Positions 23,552 through 35,874 of a stretch of DNA of 44,238 nucleotides are shown one piece after another. The position numbers were made by a program, and so were the translations under genes. The notes beneath the pieces were generated by a model. That model was not told where the DNA came from and did not search any database. It saw only the letters and a list, made by a program, of their open reading frames with translations. This stretch comes from Aneurinibacillus thermoaerophilus (GTDB taxonomy: Bacteria > Bacillota > Bacilli > Aneurinibacillales > Aneurinibacillaceae). Each line of letters begins with the position of its first letter. The stretch's first letter is position 1. The stretch spans positions 1-44,238 of the forward strand of contig NZ_FNDE01000033.1 in NCBI RefSeq assembly GCF_900099925.1. Direction: 5' to 3'.

Positions 23552-25189
23552 TTAAAATCCAGTAATCGCTACAACACCCGGGAGCGCGATGGAAGCGCCG
23601 CCACGCGGCCAGTGGCTAGTCGGTGCCGCGTATGATTCCAGGTTCTCACCTGGATGCTGTACAGACAGGAATAGTGTTTTTTCATCCGGCGTAAACCACG
23701 GGCCGGTCATTTCAGCACCGACTGGGGCAGACGCGAACTGTGAAGCGATCCCTTTATCCGGGCCTGACGTCGGGATGAAGAACAGACCGTTATTGCCAAA
23801 CGTTTTATAGATTCCGCTATTCATCGAACTGGAAGAAATATCGGTTACAACCCAGAGGTTGCCTGCACTATCAAAAGCAAGGTTATCCGGCGCAGCGAAT
23901 CCGCTCTGCGGACCGCCTGCCGCAAAAATTTCAAACGTAAACTCTTCAGCAGCGTGATTGTTATCTTCTTCGAATAATCTGATAACTTGACCGTAGAAAT
24001 TGCCATGCTTGGAGTTATTAGTCAGAGAGATAAATACCGTGCCGTCAATTGGATGTACTTCCAAATCCTCCGGCCGATCCATCGGCGTTGCACCTACTAC
24101 CTTCGCGGCCTCCCGACAATTAACCAACACATCAGCCTGTGATTTAAAGGCTTTTTGCAGCGCTTCATTCTTCTCATAGTCCAGGGCAATCCATTTCCCT
24201 TTGCCGAAATTAGCCACATATAACGTTCCTTCTTCAAGCAGTTTCGTGTTTGCTTTCCCTGCATCCTGCTTATATGTTCCTTTAGAAACATATTTGTATA
24301 CGTACTGGTCATTTGCGTCATCTCCCATGTAGACAACTAACTGTCCTCCCGGCGCGATGGTCATTGCCGTATTTTCATGAGAGAAACGGCCAAGTGCCGT
24401 ATGCTTCTTCGGCGTGGAATTCGGATCAAACGGATCAACTTCTACCACCCAGCCGTAATGTGTTGCATCTTTTCGTTTCGTGTCTTCAACAACGCTGTCA
24501 AAGTTCTCTTCACAAGAAAGAATGGTGTTCCAGAGCGTAACCCCGCCGGAACAGTTGGCGAATGTGCCAATCACTTCGCGTGTGCCGCCTACCGCTGGAG
24601 AACCAGCGGCCGGTCCTGTTAATGTATGCTTGGTCAGACCACTAACACGCCGTCCGTATTTCGAATCAGAAATCAAGCGCCACTGCCCGTTTTCTTTCTT
24701 AACTTCAATGACAGAGCCCCCCAGCGAGTACAGGTACTTTTCGATTTGCTCGGCCGTGCGTTTATTATTTTTCGGATCAGCATTTAGAGCATCGTACCCA
24801 GTCACATAGTATTCAAGCTCGCCAAGGTATTCATGGTTCACCCAGAGTAGACCATGTTCACTGCTACCGTTTATCGGCAGAAAACAGGTAAAGTCTGCGT
24901 TGAACCCAAATGTATCACCTTTTGCATTAATTTTATCTCCATACAAAGCGACAATGTCATATTTGTATCCTTGCGGAAGCACAAGATCATCTTTATCTGT
25001 TGCCTGGATTGGTTTAAACTTTACTTTCGTTGGCTTACACTTATCCTCACTTAAACCAAAAAGATGGTTCGCCGTTCTCTCGGATAATGTTTTTTCAGCG
25101 GCAAAGGCCGGAATTCCTGTTGCAATAGAAGCCAAAGCAGCCGTTCCGGCGCCTAAGTATGTAAGAAATTCCCTCCGGTTCATCTCCAT
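23552..25189 (-). CDS. PhoX-like (DUF839) Tat-exported phosphatase
   Basis: A 545-residue exported protein. The N-terminus MEMNRREFLTYLGAG has the twin-arginine motif, followed by a hydrophobic stretch and an AFA cleavage site. The mature part matches the DUF839/PhoX group: LVLPQGYKYDIVALYGDKI, NHEYLGE, GWVVEVDPFDP, LGRFSHENTAMT, DRPEDLEVHP, SVQHPGE. PhoX phosphatases are Ca/Fe-dependent and monomeric. The Tat signal and the downstream tatA support co-export. The ATG at 25189 has AGGAGTG upstream; the open frame to 25240 is not needed. I saw no convincing Pho box. Confidence 0.88.
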   Translation of the reverse strand: MEMNRREFLTYLGAGTAALASIATGIPAFAAEKTLSERTANHLFGLSEDKCKPTKVKFKPIQATDKDDLVLPQGYKYDIVALYGDKINAKGDTFGFNADFTCFLPINGSSEHGLLWVNHEYLGELEYYVTGYDALNADPKNNKRTAEQIEKYLYSLGGSVIEVKKENGQWRLISDSKYGRRVSGLTKHTLTGPAAGSPAVGGTREVIGTFANCSGGVTLWNTILSCEENFDSVVEDTKRKDATHYGWVVEVDPFDPNSTPKKHTALGRFSHENTAMTIAPGGQLVVYMGDDANDQYVYKYVSKGTYKQDAGKANTKLLEEGTLYVANFGKGKWIALDYEKNEALQKAFKSQADVLVNCREAAKVVGATPMDRPEDLEVHPIDGTVFISLTNNSKHGNFYGQVIRLFEEDNNHAAEEFTFEIFAAGGPQSGFAAPDNLAFDSAGNLWVVTDISSSSMNSGIYKTFGNNGLFFIPTSGPDKGIASQFASAPVGAEMTGPWFTPDEKTLFLSVQHPGENLESYAAPTSHWPRGGASIALPGVVAITGF

Positions 25190-25256
25190 GAAAGATATCA
25201 CTCCTGATTTGTTAAATTCGTGTCCCTTTCTTCCTTCCAACCACGCAAGAATATCG

Positions 25257-25395: not shown

Positions 25396-25830
25396 TCACT
25401 TTTTCCCTACTATTATTTCTCCCGTATGCGCCTCGATAAAACGCAACTCACCCGGTATCGAAGGAAATATAGGCACATATGCTAGCTCGTAGTACTCTTT
25501 GTTATCCTCCGTATACTCTTTTCTCCACTGCAACTCAAAATCCAATTTGGAACAAAAACATGCTACTGCTTGTTCATTTGAAACAGATGGCACAGGGGAA
25601 ATCGCCTCAAATTCCTCAGGAAACACATCAAGCCCCAGATATTGATCGAGCTTGCCTGTTGTTCGATTTACGCAAATCACCACACTTCCAAACCGAAGCG
25701 GAACTTCATGATGAAAGGCGCAAAATCGAAAGAAAACTCTCGCCTCTTCTGTTTCACTCTCGCTTTTTTCTAAGCGAAGAAATTCGTCTGCACAAAGTAT
25801 ACAGGCGGTGTTTCACAAGTATTTGTTTGC
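25396..25830 (-). pseudogene. 5'-truncated protein with YcdB/YcdC- or PepSY-like C-terminus
   Basis: The tail reads RTTGKLDQYLGLDVFPEEF, ELAYVPIFPSIPGELRFI and EAHTGEIIVGKK, a pattern like the YcdB/YcdC repeat (a Tyr-rich strand then an x-x-TGE turn). The longest ATG/GTG frame starts at GTG 25683, but the same frame is open and protein-like to about 25820, where no start codon exists. The IS605-like element begins at that point, so the insertion or a linked deletion probably removed the 5' part. Its terminator remains. Confidence 0.5.
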
Positions 25831-25838
25831 AACCGTCT

Positions 25839-26180
25839 GAAAACCCACGGTTTTCATCATGGGATAAAAGGCGGCGTTGCTCTGTATCCCATCCATGGGT
25901 ATGCTTAGAGCAACCATTTCCTGTATAATTAAATATATGAGCGACACTTATCCTACTGGTAGTAGGTCACATGTTCCTGTGGACGTCATGGTATAAGGTT
26001 CTGATAGCGAAGTAAAACCATGGGAGTGAACGCACGAATAGCGTACTGGTGGTACGCTGCCCATGTGGGTACATGCGGTGTAGTATGGGATGGGATGACA
26101 CCCCACCCTGAACTTGTGCGTTGTCCAAAGCGAACGGCGGGCGCTAATGCCCCAAGAATCCCACGGCTTTAGCCGTGTGG
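25839..26180 (+). mobile_element. IS200/IS605-like non-autonomous element with structured, omega-RNA-like interior
   Basis: The right end has the hairpin CCACGGC-TTTA-GCCGTG(TGG) preceded by CCCCAAGAATC, which looks like the right end of IS605-family elements that carry tnpB. The left end has the perfect hairpin GAAAACC-CAC-GGTTTTC (25839-25855). Next is a nested hairpin: GTTGCTCT (25876-25883) with AGAGCAAC (25907-25914), enclosing CCCAT/ATGGG. No tnpA or tnpB frame exists inside; instead many short stems (CGTACTGGTGGTACG, GGGATGGGATGACACCCC) fill the 340 bases. In TnpB elements the right end is transcribed as a guide (omega) RNA whose guide comes from flanking DNA. Exact ends are estimates. 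Confidence 0.6.
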
Positions 26181-26325
26181 AGTATCATCTTAGTCATTCA
26201 GCATTCATAACATAACGAGAAAAATAAGAGAGCAGGAAACGTTGCGACTAACGAACTAGTTAAATACCTCTTGCACTTGGCTTAGGAAGGACAATTTTAA
26301 AAATATAAACAGGAGGTGATGAAAA

Positions 26326-26667
26326 ATGAACGATAGGTTTGATTTGATTTTGTCAGCTTTACAAGGAGTCCAAAGTGAGGTTCAAAACCTAAACCAACGT
26401 ATTGATACTTTTGAAAAAGAGGTGAATCAGCGCTTTGACGAACTAAAAGATTCTATTAACTGCAAACACATTGAAAGTATCAAAGCCGATGAATTGATTC
26501 TTCAATCTTTAGAAACTGGACAACAGAAATTACTTTCCCGAATTGAAGACGTAGAACGAGGTATGTATCGCCTGGAACGAATGGAGCTGCGCCAGAATCG
26601 AATGGCAATGAAAGTGGACGAGCTAGAAGCGGATATCGCCCTGCTCCGCGATAAACTGCAAAATTAA
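26326..26667 (+). CDS. Coiled-coil protein of unknown function
   Basis: A 113-residue protein that is helical and coiled-coil nearly throughout (VQNLNQRIDTFEKEVNQRFD, RIEDVERGMYRLERMEL, VDELEADIALLRDKL), with one Cys and no membrane span. Ribosome site AGGAGGTGATG is excellent. Such small heptad-repeat proteins occur in Bacillales and phages; no function can be given. A weak hairpin with TTTTTT follows (26672-26706). Confidence 0.7.
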   Translation: MNDRFDLILSALQGVQSEVQNLNQRIDTFEKEVNQRFDELKDSINCKHIESIKADELILQSLETGQQKLLSRIEDVERGMYRLERMELRQNRMAMKVDELEADIALLRDKLQN

Positions 26668-26867
26668 TCTTTTAGAAGTCGGCCATGAAAATGTCGGGGC
26701 TTTTTTATACAACATTTGCTCATTTTTTCTTGCATCAAGCAAAGCCCCTCCCCCCTTTTCTTTCCACTGCCTCTCCTCTCTTTTGCCACATATAAGTAGT
26801 AAAACAGTACGCTTAAATAAGTACAAAGAGATATCGTATTGTTTTTTTCGTGAAACTAATATTCCGG

Positions 26868-27062
26868 TCATCTTTTTAAACATAAACGAATGCCGTCAAC
26901 CATAACTTCTTTATCCGTATCTTCGATGGATTCCTCCAGAGCCATCTCATAGTTGGGGCCTCCTCAACCAGCTCCAGCAATAAAAATGCGGAGAATATCT
27001 TGCTTCGGATATTCCATTGTCTCCTTCAGCTTCGCAATCGCTTCCGGAGTTACGCGAAGCAT
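26868..27062 (-). CDS. HesB/IscA-like protein with in-frame UGA, probable selenoprotein
   Basis: From ATG 27062 (ribosome site GAAGGTGA) the frame reads MLRVTPEAIAKLKETMEY, LRIFIAGAG, then TGA (26964-26966), and continues as GGPNYEMALEESIEDTDKE to a second stop at 26868. HesB/IscA-like iron-sulfur proteins have AGxGCxGP here, so the TGA falls exactly on the conserved Cys. HesB-like proteins are a known selenoprotein family. A candidate SECIS hairpin follows. The protein is short (64 residues); the usual last ~25 residues are missing, so decay of a former selenoprotein gene is the alternative. It would act in Fe-S or sulfur handling. Confidence 0.65.
26925..26946 (-). promoter_or_regulatory. 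Candidate bacterial SECIS element
   Basis: In the mRNA GAUGG (26946-26942) pairs with CCAUC (26929-26925), enclosing a 12-base loop that contains UGGAGG. The loop G residues are about 26 bases after the UGA, within the range reported for bacterial SECIS elements. Structure was folded by eye. Confidence 0.45.
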
Positions 27063-27194
27063 ATCTTCACCTTCTTTCTGCTTCACAGCGGATGCATTTA
27101 TTTTCTCACCAAATACCCTTGCATTATTCTTTTGCCCATTTCCCCAGTAAATTTTCAATCCCGTATAGCATATGTCCAAATAGTAAATACCCTA

Positions 27195-27237
27195 TATACC
27201 CCTTGTGGTATATTATAAAAATTTTTTATGTTGTCAA
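27195..27237 (-). promoter_or_regulatory. Promoter of the HesB-like gene with CsoR/CstR-like operator
   Basis: On the minus strand TTGACA (27232-27237) and TAATAT (27210-27215) are 16 bases apart. Overlapping the -10 is TATACC-CCTTGT-GGTATA (27195-27212), an inverted repeat like the ATACC...GGTAT operators of CsoR/CstR-family copper or persulfide sensors. A further ATACCC half-site is at 27187-27192. Confidence 0.55.
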
Positions 27238-27345
27238 TCCACTATAAACTAAAAACCATCTGTGGAAATTTCTGTTTGCAAAAAGAGAAGTACGGCAGGG
27301 TACGCTAAAAACGACCGTCTCAATAAGATAAAAAGGAGCTTTCAT

Positions 27346-28539
27346 ATGAAACAAACAGGAAAACTGGACAGACAGTCCTGGCTTCTTCTGCTAATGAATA
27401 CGCTATACCTTATCTCCGTCGGCCTCTCCAACACTTTCGTCAATATCTACCTGTGGAAAGTAAAAAAAGACTATGCCATGATCGGATGGTTTAACTTTTT
27501 TACCTTCTTTTCTATTCTAGCTACATTTTGGATCGGCGGTCACCTTATAAAAAGATGGGATCGTGTCATAAGCATTCGCCTCGGCGTTTTCATTCTGGCC
27601 ATATTTTATCTAACTGTCCTCATGCTCGGTCCGTCAGCCACAAACTATGTCGCTCTGCTTGGCCTTTTGCTTGGCATAGGAGCCGGCTTCTATTGGCTTG
27701 GATATTACGTTATGTATTTTGAAATTACCGGGCCAGAAAACCGAGATGTTTTTAACGGGGTGAACGGACTGCTTATGTCGATGGCCGCCGGAGGTGCCCC
27801 GTTGCTTGCTGGATGGCTCGTCTCACACCAAGCAAATGGATACCGGCTTATTTTTTCTATTTCGCTCATCATTTTCACTTTGGCGGTAGTGGTCAGCTTC
27901 TTTATCACCAAAAGAAAATGCGAAGGACACTTTTCATTGCGCAGTGTATGGAATGATACCCGCAACGTTTCACGTTGGCATTACGTCGTGTTTTCCTATT
28001 TTTTCTGGGGTATGCGAGAAGGCGTAGTTGTCTTTCTCGTCGGTTTACTGGTGTTTATCGCCTCTTCAAGCGAATTGACAGTAGGAATATACGCATTTCT
28101 TACGTCTACTCTGTCACTTGTGTCTTACTATATTGTGGGAAAATGGATTCGTCCTCACAAACGGGAATATTCACTTTTTATCGGAGCTTTCATGCTCATA
28201 GTGGCCGTTTTGCCACTGCTCTCGCAAATCCGCTTCAGCACACTGCTTTTGCTTGGTATCGGTACCGCTCTGTTTTACCCTTTTTTTGCCGTGCCCCTTG
28301 TTTCCACATCATTTGATGTGATCGGGGAAAGCATGGAGAAAGCAAAATTAAGGGTAGAATATATCGTTATTCGCGAGTTTGCTTTCAGCCTGGGGCGTCT
28401 GCTCAGCACGCTATTATTCGTATTGCTCGTCATGGCGACCACAGCTACCAAAGCGCTCGTACTGTATCTGATCGGGTTAAATTTACTGCTTATGCTCTGT
28501 TGGGTTTTTATGCGAAACGTTTTTCCAACTCGCGCATAA
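27346..28539 (+). CDS. Major facilitator superfamily transporter (YqgE-like)
   Basis: A 397-residue polytopic membrane protein with about 12 hydrophobic segments (LLLLMNTLYLISVGLSNTFV, YVALLGLLLGIGAGFYWLGY, LLLLGIGTALFYPFFAVPL). The N-terminal GLSNTFVNIYLWK and central YFEITGPENRD blocks resemble B. subtilis YqgE and related MFS proteins of unknown substrate. Ribosome site AAAAAGGAG fixes the ATG at 27346; the open frame to 27262 lacks one. Divergent from the HesB-like gene, with about 280 bases between them. Confidence 0.8.
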   Translation: MKQTGKLDRQSWLLLLMNTLYLISVGLSNTFVNIYLWKVKKDYAMIGWFNFFTFFSILATFWIGGHLIKRWDRVISIRLGVFILAIFYLTVLMLGPSATNYVALLGLLLGIGAGFYWLGYYVMYFEITGPENRDVFNGVNGLLMSMAAGGAPLLAGWLVSHQANGYRLIFSISLIIFTLAVVVSFFITKRKCEGHFSLRSVWNDTRNVSRWHYVVFSYFFWGMREGVVVFLVGLLVFIASSSELTVGIYAFLTSTLSLVSYYIVGKWIRPHKREYSLFIGAFMLIVAVLPLLSQIRFSTLLLLGIGTALFYPFFAVPLVSTSFDVIGESMEKAKLRVEYIVIREFAFSLGRLLSTLLFVLLVMATTATKALVLYLIGLNLLLMLCWVFMRNVFPTRA

Positions 28540-28618
28540 ATACGAATAAAACCGTGAACAATAAAAGCATAAGTCTGAATGTTACGGAAAGGATGCGACA
28601 TGTTTTGTGACATGTTTA

Positions 28619-28786
28619 ATGAAGGAACGATATATCCTCGCTTACTTTAATACACCCGAACAGGCGGAAAATATCCGACAGCAGTTCGCGTTAGCCGATG
28701 GAATTATTGACACACAGGTGAACCGCATCGGATTGTACCCAGAGCCCCAAACAAGTCATTTCATAAAATACCATTACAGAGAATAA
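28619..28786 (+). CDS. Small hypothetical protein
   Basis: A 55-residue ORF starting MKERYILAYFNTPEQAENIR and ending SHFIKYHYRE. It has good codon use and an alpha/beta look (a strand, then the helix TPEQAENIRQQF). The ribosome site (GGAAAGG) is distant, so it may be a fragment of a longer gene or use GTG 28607. ACATGT palindromes flank the start. Family unknown. Confidence 0.4.
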   Translation: MKERYILAYFNTPEQAENIRQQFALADGIIDTQVNRIGLYPEPQTSHFIKYHYRE

Positions 28787-32919: not shown

Positions 32920-35874
32920 TTACTTCTCCCCCTGTCCAGCGGTTTCCAATGCCTTATAATCCGCACGCTTCCATTTCCGCTCCACTTCTACCCCGCGCTG
33001 CGGATTGCGTTTGCCAAAACGAGAGTTATAGCGGGGAAGCGGACTTTCACCTTCCACCTGGAGCACTTGCATTTTTACCCTTGTTTCTTTATAAGCAGGC
33101 GTATGTGTCACCAAATCATAGAAGCTGTTCGTCAAAAGGTTAACCGCCGAATCTTCATTGGTCGAATTCATCGGCACATACACTTCGTTCCCTCGCACGC
33201 GGTCAGTAACTATGACACGCAGTTTTACAGCACCGTATTCAGATTCGAGCCGGACAAGGGACCCGTCTTTGATCCCGCGCTCTTTCGCAAGTTCCGGCGA
33301 TACCTCCACAAACGTATCCGGCACTTTGTATAAAAGCCCCCTGGACTTATTGGTCATATTTCCTTCATGGAAGTGCTCAAGCAAACGACCGTTATTTAAC
33401 ACCAGGTCATATTCGTCCCCTGTTTTCACAGGTGGAACCCAGTCAGTCGGCATAAGCTGCGCTTTTCCATCCGGGAATGGGAAGCGCTCTGTATACAACA
33501 GCGGTGTATCTGTTCCGTCCGCATTTACCGGCCAGAGCAAGCTATTCCATCCTTCCAGGCGCTCATACGTTACACCAGCAAACAGCGGCGTAAGGCTTGC
33601 CGCTTCTGCCATAATTTCTCCTGGATGCTCATAACACCAATGCGCGCCAAGGTGATTCGCCAAGGCGGTAATGATTTTCCAATCTGGAAGGGATTCACCT
33701 AGCGGTTCCAGTGCCTGATACAGACGCTGAATACGGCGCTCCGTGTTCGTAAATGTGCCTTCTTTCTCAAGGCTCGGGCTAGCTGGAAGTATAACATCGG
33801 CGAACTGAGCCGTTTTTGTGAAAAACACGTCCTGAACGACGAAGAACTCCAGCTTTTCCAGTGCGGCATGAATATGGTTCGCATTGGAGTCAACCCATGC
33901 CATATCTTCCCCCATTAGATACATAGCTTTCAGCTTGCCTTTATGAATGGCTTCAACCATACCGGGATTATCAAGCCCTTTTTCTCGCGGCAATTTTACG
34001 TTCCAGGCTTTTTCATAACGCTCACGCACCGCATCGTCCGTTACAAGTTCATAACCCGGAAAGAAGTTCGGAAGCGCCCCGAAGTCGCACGCCCCCTGTA
34101 CGTTGTTATGTCCGCGCAGCGGGAATGCGCCGGCATTCGGACGGCCAAAGTTTCCCGTCACAAGCAACAGATTGCTGATCGCCGTACTCGTTTCGCTGCC
34201 ACCACAGTGCTGAGTAACGCCCATCGCCCAGAAAATAGCTGTTCCATCAGCTTCATAAATCATATTCGCTGTCTGGATTAGCTGTTCTTTCGGAATACGA
34301 GTGACTTCTTCCGCATACTCCAGCGTATATTTTTCTAGCGATTTCACGTACTCATCAAAACCGTTTACGCGCTTGGTGAGAAACTCCCTGTCATGCCATC
34401 CCTGGTCAATGATGTATTTTGTGACGGCGGACAGCCAGACATGATCCGTCCCCGGCGCCGGACGCAGGAATAAATCCGAGCGTTCTGCCATCTCGTTTTT
34501 GCGCAGATCGGCAACGATAAGCTTCTGTCCATTTAATTTATGAGCGCGCTTCAGACGCGTAGCGATAACCGGATGTGCTTCTGCCGGGTTGGCGCCAACG
34601 ATAATGGCTAGGCCGGCTCCTGCCATGTCATAAATCGTGCCCGCATCACCACCATATCCGACCGTACGGAACAATCCCGTTGTCGCCGGGGATTGGCAAT
34701 AGCGGGAGCAATTATCGACATTGTTCGTTCCGATAACCGCGCGCGCGAACTTTTGCATTAAATAGTTTTCTTCATTCGTGCATTTAGAAGATGAAATAAA
34801 ACCAAACGCGTCCGCACCGTCGCGTTCTCTGATTTCTTGGAATTTGTTTGCAATCAGCTCCAATGCTTCTTCCCATGTCGCTTCATAAAACTCATCGCCT
34901 TTACGGATAAGTGGCTTCGTCAGCCGCTCTTCACTGTTAATGAAATCCCAGCCGAATTTTCCTTTCACACAAGTGGAAATACCGTTAACCGGCGCATCCG
35001 GAGTCGGCTGGATTTTGAGAATTTTGCGTCCTTTGGTCCATACTTCAAACGTACAGCCGACACCACAAAACGTACAAACCGTTTTCGTCCTTTTTATGCG
35101 GGTTGCGCGCAGTGTTGCTTCCAATTCAGATACGGCAAAAATGCCGCTATACCCCGGCTCCACTTCTTTTACAAAGTCAATCATCGGGCCAAGCAACTCC
35201 TGCTTCATGCCTGTCATAATGCCAGCCTCGCCAAGCATTGATTTTTCCATCAGCGCATTACATGGACATACGTTTACACAATGGCCGCAAGATACACAGG
35301 ATGATTCGTTAATCGGAACGTCATCGTCCCATATAACCCGCGGATGCTCGCGTTCCCAATCGATGGACAGCGTTTCATTTACCTGAACATTCTGGCAAGC
35401 CTCCACGCATTGACCACAAAGAATGCATTGATCCGGATCATAGCGGTAGAACGGATGGGACATATCCACTTTGTACGGCTTTGGCTTATATGGATATTTT
35501 TGATGCTCGATTTGCATCATCTCGACCGTATTATGAATGCGGCAGTTTCCGTTGTTGTTGTCACAAACAGTGCAATAAAGCTGATGGTTTTCCAGAATGC
35601 GATCCATCGCTTCCACTTGCGCCGCCCTCGCCATCGGTGATTTTGTCTCTACATTCATGCCGTCCTCTACTTTCATCGCGCAAGCACGCGCCAGCTTACC
35701 GTTGATTTCCACCATACAAGTATCACACGTTTGAATCGTGCCCAGGTTCGGGTGATAACAGATGTGTGGAATATCAATGCCGCTCGCCTTAATCGCATCA
35801 ATGACATTCTGTTCTTCGATCGCCTTTACCTCCTGCCCATCAATACGAATAGACACTTTTACTGTAGAACTCAT
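32920..35874 (-). CDS. Molybdenum-dependent formate dehydrogenase, catalytic subunit (YrhE-like, Cys type)
   Basis: A 984-residue enzyme that oxidises formate to CO2. Order: N-terminal 2Fe-2S domain (CYHPNLGTIQTCDTCM, ~38-53), His-Cys 4Fe-4S region (HQLYCTVCDNNNGNC), a two-cluster ferredoxin domain (CILCGQCVEAC, CVSCGHCVNVCPC), a further 4Fe-4S site (CTFCGVGC, then STCVKGKFG), then the molybdopterin domains. The metal ligand is Cys in NCSRYCQSPATTG, not selenocysteine. The C-terminus has the cofactor-binding domain (MTNKSRGLLYKVP, PAYKETRVKM). Molybdenum versus tungsten cannot be told. A structured leader lies upstream; fdhD is 3.5 kb away on the other strand. Confidence 0.93.
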   Translation of the reverse strand: MSSTVKVSIRIDGQEVKAIEEQNVIDAIKASGIDIPHICYHPNLGTIQTCDTCMVEINGKLARACAMKVEDGMNVETKSPMARAAQVEAMDRILENHQLYCTVCDNNNGNCRIHNTVEMMQIEHQKYPYKPKPYKVDMSHPFYRYDPDQCILCGQCVEACQNVQVNETLSIDWEREHPRVIWDDDVPINESSCVSCGHCVNVCPCNALMEKSMLGEAGIMTGMKQELLGPMIDFVKEVEPGYSGIFAVSELEATLRATRIKRTKTVCTFCGVGCTFEVWTKGRKILKIQPTPDAPVNGISTCVKGKFGWDFINSEERLTKPLIRKGDEFYEATWEEALELIANKFQEIRERDGADAFGFISSSKCTNEENYLMQKFARAVIGTNNVDNCSRYCQSPATTGLFRTVGYGGDAGTIYDMAGAGLAIIVGANPAEAHPVIATRLKRAHKLNGQKLIVADLRKNEMAERSDLFLRPAPGTDHVWLSAVTKYIIDQGWHDREFLTKRVNGFDEYVKSLEKYTLEYAEEVTRIPKEQLIQTANMIYEADGTAIFWAMGVTQHCGGSETSTAISNLLLVTGNFGRPNAGAFPLRGHNNVQGACDFGALPNFFPGYELVTDDAVRERYEKAWNVKLPREKGLDNPGMVEAIHKGKLKAMYLMGEDMAWVDSNANHIHAALEKLEFFVVQDVFFTKTAQFADVILPASPSLEKEGTFTNTERRIQRLYQALEPLGESLPDWKIITALANHLGAHWCYEHPGEIMAEAASLTPLFAGVTYERLEGWNSLLWPVNADGTDTPLLYTERFPFPDGKAQLMPTDWVPPVKTGDEYDLVLNNGRLLEHFHEGNMTNKSRGLLYKVPDTFVEVSPELAKERGIKDGSLVRLESEYGAVKLRVIVTDRVRGNEVYVPMNSTNEDSAVNLLTNSFYDLVTHTPAYKETRVKMQVLQVEGESPLPRYNSRFGKRNPQRGVEVERKWKRADYKALETAGQGEK

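Follow-up and report, generated by a model that had tools for sequence, protein, structure and literature searches.

A short reading frame on the minus strand of the window, as we call the whole 44,238-nucleotide stretch of Aneurinibacillus thermoaerophilus DNA analysed here, is very probably a recent pseudogene of a HesB/IscA-like selenoprotein, the relic of a lineage that lost the entire selenium trait. The TGA that interrupts the frame is homologous to the selenocysteine (Sec) codon of its relatives, the gene is truncated, the genome holds no Sec machinery above family cut-offs, and fossil pieces of selB and mnmH occupy the positions of a relative's live genes. From this pattern we infer the order of the losses, their recency, and the lack of a functional product.

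A HesB/IscA-Like Frame with an Internal TGA

The features of the frame are these:

26868..27062, minus strand: probable HesB/IscA-like relic; ATG at 27062-27060, 32 codons, TGA, 31 codons, then TGA
26964..26966, minus strand: in-frame TGA, the ancestral Sec codon, at the conserved AGxG-U-GGP position; same codon in relatives
26868..26885, minus strand: LCLKR plus stop, the codons past VDGIR, where aligned similarity to relatives ends
27067..27074, minus strand: GAAGGTGA, upstream of the ATG and still present; putative, ribosome-binding-site-like, its function assigned by eye only

With the TGA taken as Sec, the translation is MLRVTPEAIAKLKETMEYPKQDILRIFIAGAG-U-GGPNYEMALEESIEDTDKEVMVDGIRLCLKR, followed by a TGA stop, and the frame has a HesB/IscA-like domain with the in-frame UGA at the U-x-G-P position. 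Read thus, it matches TIGR00049 (E 4.9e-9) and NF038090 (IscA_HesB_Se, E 9e-9), in both cases below the curated cut-off. Because these matches span both sides of the TGA, the frame is more than a chance opening. The Pfam Fe-S_biosyn match (E 2.4e-4) is also below its cut-off. The frame scores 22.8 bits against TIGR01911 (cut-off 66.35) and 35.6 bits against NF038090 (cut-off 85); the intact ortholog in A. tyrosinisolvens falls short of both as well, at 42.4 and 50.4 bits, respectively.

The first-pass annotation, made from the letters alone, had placed an in-frame TGA at the conserved cysteine of a HesB/IscA-like gene, and the matches to TIGR00049 and NF038090, together with the TGA at the same codon in A. 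tyrosinisolvens, bear this out. Its statement that the frame stays open for 31 more codons agrees with our count of 31 sense codons; the strand, which it left unstated, is minus. The C-terminus is indeed shorter than usual, with 64 codons in the window copy compared with 94-97 residues in five intact relatives.

Its candidate SECIS element fared less well:

26925..26946, minus strand: GAUGG...CCAUC hairpin of the first-pass annotation, possibly a weak SECIS remnant; letters present, fold z -0.83

The letters are there, at 26946-26925, but the GAUGG/CCAUC hairpin is not the minimum-free-energy structure of the 51 nt from the TGA on, and that stretch folds no better than shuffled sequence (42 of 200 shuffles are as good). 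The minimum-energy folds of five relatives agreed on no common structure (the stretch from locus L022 began just past its TGA). Sub-folds of A. tyrosinisolvens and of genome G091 (loci L020 and L022) include a short hairpin that has a longer stem and a bulged U; since it overlaps the conserved protein motif, we draw nothing from it.

Relatives and the Missing C-Terminus

Homologs were sought in 101 genomes, among them that of the window (G000), and 46 of the 101 had a match to the frame; none of the six genus-mates did. The best match beyond G000 is in A. tyrosinisolvens (G007), 72% identical over residues 1-60 and with a TGA at the same codon. G007 is strain LL-002, the DNA being identical letter for letter over 12,183 bases, and is counted here as belonging to a different genus within the same family. 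Three loci came from the scan of named genomes, two of them being the DNA of G007 and G091. The A. tyrosinisolvens ortholog has 96 residues and ends in ...GAANC. Four genomes of a single genus in another family (G077, G091, G026 and G063) share the TGA arrangement, with 51-58% identity and lengths of 94-97 residues. Identity to the window frame is lower, at 41 and 40%, for the TGA-containing HesB-like genes of G009 and G010, which may represent another branch of the family.

The window copy can be aligned as far as VDGIR and ends five residues on, so that about 37 C-terminal residues are missing. These include the terminal cysteine, which all five intact copies (94-97 residues) retain. Apart from this loss, the 59 homologous codons contain no frameshift and no other stop. 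A DNA remnant of the lost portion could not be demonstrated after the break: a likeness to A. tyrosinisolvens of the form ATGTTT...GACCGG...TTCAC was dropped, since 335 of 500 shuffles score as well. Plasmids yielded no mobile source for the gene, as the ten matching records among 72,556 were all less than 60% identical.

The Locus

27349..28539, plus strand: transporter, MFS-type by eye; ortholog of the transporter near the intact hesB-like gene in A. tyrosinisolvens

The transporter, which we take to be MFS-type, has orthologs in G005 (79% identity), G002 (79%), G003 (78%), G001 (75%), A. tyrosinisolvens (63%), G004 (60%) and G006 (59%). Because of the orthologs in genus-mates, the contig can be assigned to the genus Aneurinibacillus. 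The transporter ortholog of A. tyrosinisolvens is separated from the intact hesB-like gene by about 1.6 kb and two other genes, and the relative orientation is the same as in the window. This linkage, common to the window and A. tyrosinisolvens, is thus probably ancestral. Beside the same transporter, within the flanks compared, none of the six genus-mates shows a trace of hesB; in G001 a gene matching, by eye, window positions 23552-25240, beyond the relic, directly adjoins the transporter.

Other features of the window were also noted. A 59-residue frame on the plus strand at 28607-28786 is a second truncated gene, less than 2 kb from the relic: a 48-residue stretch of it (28619-28762, 71% identity) matches the start of a 124-residue protein beside the same transporter in G005, and the rest is unmatched nearby. 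The stretch 26020-26185, ending in CCCACGGCTTTAGCCGTGTGGAGT, resembles what we take to be the end of an IS200/IS605-type element; Rfam searches of the window and of 25700-27400 gave no RNA that would explain 26000-26200. The 3′ end of a 23S rRNA gene lies at the contig edge (43945-44238, minus strand). A formate dehydrogenase alpha subunit is encoded at 32920-35874 on the minus strand, with a cysteine within NVDNCSRYCQSPATTGL at what is presumably the usual Sec/Cys place of that subunit. Formate dehydrogenase was considered as a further lost selenoprotein and rejected, because none of 25 places in 10 of the 11 genomes of the family has an internal stop.

Selenium Machinery in the Genome and Its Relatives

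The machinery was surveyed in 15 genomes: G000, its six genus-mates, four others of the same family, and four more distant carriers. G000 is a 103-contig draft of 3,658,529 bases, 99.99% complete, with contamination given as 1.15%. None of selA, selB, selD and tRNA-Sec exceeds its family cut-off there. Across the survey, selB and selA each pass in eight genomes, none of the seven of the genus and all eight others (the G091 copy of selA is split over two contigs); tRNA-Sec was found in seven, again none of the genus and seven of the eight others, G091 being the miss. The more widespread selD is present in 11 of the 15 and absent from G000 (best 66.6 bits, cut-off 125), G002, G003 and G005. The six genus-mates, two of which are single-contig assemblies, thus have neither selA, selB nor tRNA-Sec. 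G000 aside, all seven tested genomes that have a TGA-containing HesB-like gene (G007, G009, G010, G077, G091, G026 and G063) also have selA and selB.

Weaker matches in G000 were set aside. The best eight of 21 tRNA-Sec-like places are genes for tRNA-Ser, Gly, Trp and Leu, and the strongest matches (45.5 bits, gathering score 47) are to tRNA-Ser with anticodon tga; the program that gave these ordinary tRNAs called tRNA-Sec in A. tyrosinisolvens. Seven selB-like matches below the cut-off are presumably other translation GTPases. According to the consulted part of PMC7996765, just three of nine Aneurinibacillus genomes (A. soli, A. terranovensis and A. tyrosinisolvens) have selenophosphate synthase, and just two of the nine (A. 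terranovensis and A. tyrosinisolvens) have selenocysteine synthase; the nine include the single-contig strain XH2, close to A. thermoaerophilus L 420-91T (dDDH 98.4% by d4). Because that survey, so far as consulted, agrees with our searches, a gap in the assembly is disfavoured.

In three genus-mates, G006, G004 and G001 (loci L057, L058 and L059), a selD gene without internal TGA adjoins mnmH, and selA, selB and tRNA-Sec are lacking above cut-offs. It is possible that selenouridine use outlived Sec use in these genomes.

Remnants of selB and mnmH

The genes tuf, ftsW and rpsJ are named here as we recognised them from their sequences, not by family search. The order in A. tyrosinisolvens is tuf, mnmH (tRNA 2-selenouridine synthase; NF008750, E 4.2e-103), selD (with a TGA of its own), selA and an ftsW-like gene; rpsJ is preceded by tRNA-Sec and selB. 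In G000 the corresponding places hold fragments:

Contig C79, 45466-45714 (computed): mnmH fossil (locus L073), between tuf and the ftsW-like gene
Contig C63, about 26452-26825: selB fossil (locus L108), before rpsJ

The mnmH fossil covers residues 332-407, 83 columns of the C-terminus, with one stop and 38.6% identity (E 9e-11). The selB fossil covers residues 518-642, is split between two frames and interrupted by two stops, and has identities of 44.3% and 61.9% (E 3.6e-30). Neither selA nor selD has a match in the slot between tuf and the ftsW-like gene of G000. None of the six genus-mates has a piece of selB at rpsJ (about 1.5 kb searched on each side); matches elsewhere are at chance level, two of them with E 0.93. 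Nor is there a piece of mnmH in the tuf slot of the three genus-mates searched (G001, G004 and G006).

The arrangement in A. tyrosinisolvens recurs in G010: in both genomes (loci L077, L078, L074 and L075) selB with tRNA-Sec precedes rpsJ, and mnmH, selD and selA come after tuf. The sel genes of both thus lie at either end of what resembles a split str-S10 region.

Selection and Timing

Comparison of the window copy with that of A. tyrosinisolvens over 26 codons beyond the TGA gives 2, 1 and 13 differences at first, second and third positions, respectively (dN 0.077, dS 1.99); for the 32 codons before it the counts are 10, 4 and 19 (dN 0.264, dS saturated). Against equal rates, the surplus of third-position differences beyond the TGA has P of about 1e-4, a value pooled over the two branches, of which one is under selection in any case. 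Since these differences are mostly synonymous, it is likely that UGA was decoded until fairly recently. Outgroups place six of the 16 on the window branch (five synonymous, one non-synonymous) and two on the other; the remaining eight, of which four are non-synonymous, are of ambiguous branch. Nor is there clear acceleration: after the TGA, dN to G077 and G063 is 0.29 and 0.32 for the window copy and 0.26 and 0.25 for the intact ortholog. By this comparison UGA would have been decoded for most of the gene's history, and the decay would be young; the numbers are small, and the timing is weak because only six of the 16 differences can be placed on the window branch.

In a tree of four proteins the splits around G000 are weakly supported (ultrafast bootstrap 49, 61 and 86), and G004 and G006 group on the side of the other genera. 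Separate losses of Sec in the genus-mates are likely.

Discussion

The first-pass annotation had judged the frame a probable selenoprotein, and it could still be a working one only if its machinery were present in the cell and missing from the draft assembly and if the short form were functional. The TGA at the family's Sec position, the relatives with sel genes, and the mostly synonymous change across 26 codons compared beyond the TGA all speak for such a protein. Yet four separate genes (selA, selB, selD and tRNA-Sec) are absent above cut-offs from a genome that is 99.99% complete, and broken remnants are found where selB and mnmH natively sit. The six genus-mates, including two single-contig assemblies, lack selA, selB and tRNA-Sec; the consulted part of PMC7996765 gives selenocysteine synthase for just two of nine genomes, both of other species; and the C-terminal third is missing. 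We consider a working selenoprotein extremely unlikely. The annotation had held that a lack of sel genes, together with a lack of relatives continuing through this frame, would tell against it; the sel genes are lacking, but relatives do carry the TGA. The rival it entertained, a decaying former selenoprotein, agrees with the truncated copy and with selB and mnmH fossils at the places of the A. tyrosinisolvens live genes. One might still suppose ordinary near-cognate suppression at the TGA, giving a 64-residue product with a new role. The 59 codons free of any other stop or frameshift, and the mostly synonymous change beyond the TGA, would suit such a product; however, past Sec decoding explains that conservation equally well, and the lost part holds the C-terminal cysteine kept in all five intact copies, which leaves suppression exceedingly improbable.

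Two further alternatives concern the origin of the DNA. If the gene came by horizontal transfer into a lineage without Sec, it would have been dead on arrival, and the absence of any trace beside the same transporter in six of six genus-mates, within the flanks compared, would follow readily. The hesB-transporter linkage common to the window and A. tyrosinisolvens and the selB and mnmH fossils at native sites together show that this lineage formerly had the trait; transfer is very unlikely. Contamination of the assembly by a contig from another, Sec-decoding organism is scarcely credible. It could draw on the same lack of a match in six of six genus-mates and on the 1.15% contamination given for the assembly, but the adjacent transporter is 75-79% identical to those of four genus-mates and 63% identical to that of A. 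tyrosinisolvens, the fossils lie on other contigs of G000, beside rpsJ and tuf, and the gene is truncated in any case.

The favoured reading, a pseudogene left by the loss of the trait, would begin with an ancestor in which SelB, with Sec-tRNA-Sec, read UGA as selenocysteine in a protein of about 96 residues that had Sec at its active site and a C-terminal cysteine. The lineage would then have lost its use of selenium entirely, with selA, selB, selD, tRNA-Sec and mnmH. In a cell without SelB, UGA would be a plain stop, and the hesB-like gene would have lost its function and then its last third. At most a 32-residue peptide containing neither Sec nor Cys would be expected today. Two changes disable the window copy, a UGA in a genome without SelB and the loss of the C-terminal third. 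A clean frame of 59 codons is unusual for a pseudogene, and this, the intact start codon, the intact ribosome-binding-like sequence and the 103-contig state of the draft are among the points against a relic.

It is also possible, although we put this forward tentatively and at slightly less than even chances, that the genome is a snapshot of how the 21st amino acid was lost, completely, in steps and very recently, and that other members of the genus lost it separately. The machinery would have been deleted at two ribosomal-operon loci, and the frame of the selenoprotein would have outlived it nearly unscarred. If so, Aneurinibacillus would be a natural series in which the steps of Sec loss could be put in order and dated.

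Comparison with Known Systems

Absence is the usual ground for concluding that the Sec trait has been lost. Here a single genome preserves three fossils (a selenoprotein gene, selB and the gene for selenouridine synthase) where relatives have the live copies, and for that reason the order and age of the loss are open to study. The case also carries a warning: a TGA at the right cysteine and conservation downstream of it do not make a selenoprotein unless sel genes are present, and a prediction from the gene alone could call the window frame one. A search of the literature on Aneurinibacillus selenocysteine or selenoproteins, on selenoprotein pseudogenes and on Sec loss found no account of this relic; subscription literature was scarcely covered, and one may be in print. 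The consulted parts of PMC13188914 and PMC5029168 describe no comparable relic.

The window frame resembles the HesB-like selenoprotein family in that it matches both models (TIGR01911 and NF038090) and has the Sec codon at the same U-x-G-P position. Its A. tyrosinisolvens ortholog is complete, whereas the window copy is truncated, lies below both curated cut-offs, and sits in a genome without Sec machinery. HesB-like proteins are listed among the selenoprotein families lost in sister organisms in the consulted part of PMC1794560.

That Sec decoding can be lost with leftovers is already known in print. In Yersinia pestis CO92 and Mediaevalis, selB is a pseudogene and a UGA is left in the gene for formate dehydrogenase O (PMC1273633, as far as consulted), a recent loss with a leftover UGA gene like that described here. 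By that partial account, Y. pestis keeps selA, selC and selD, whereas the genome of the window lacks them, has selB and mnmH only as fragments, and has a truncated selenoprotein gene. The lone selA of Helicobacter pylori likewise survives from the Sec trait in an organism that has given up Sec decoding; in the portion of PMC4607533 consulted, that gene is intact and is argued to be functional, whereas the leftovers in the genome of the window are broken.
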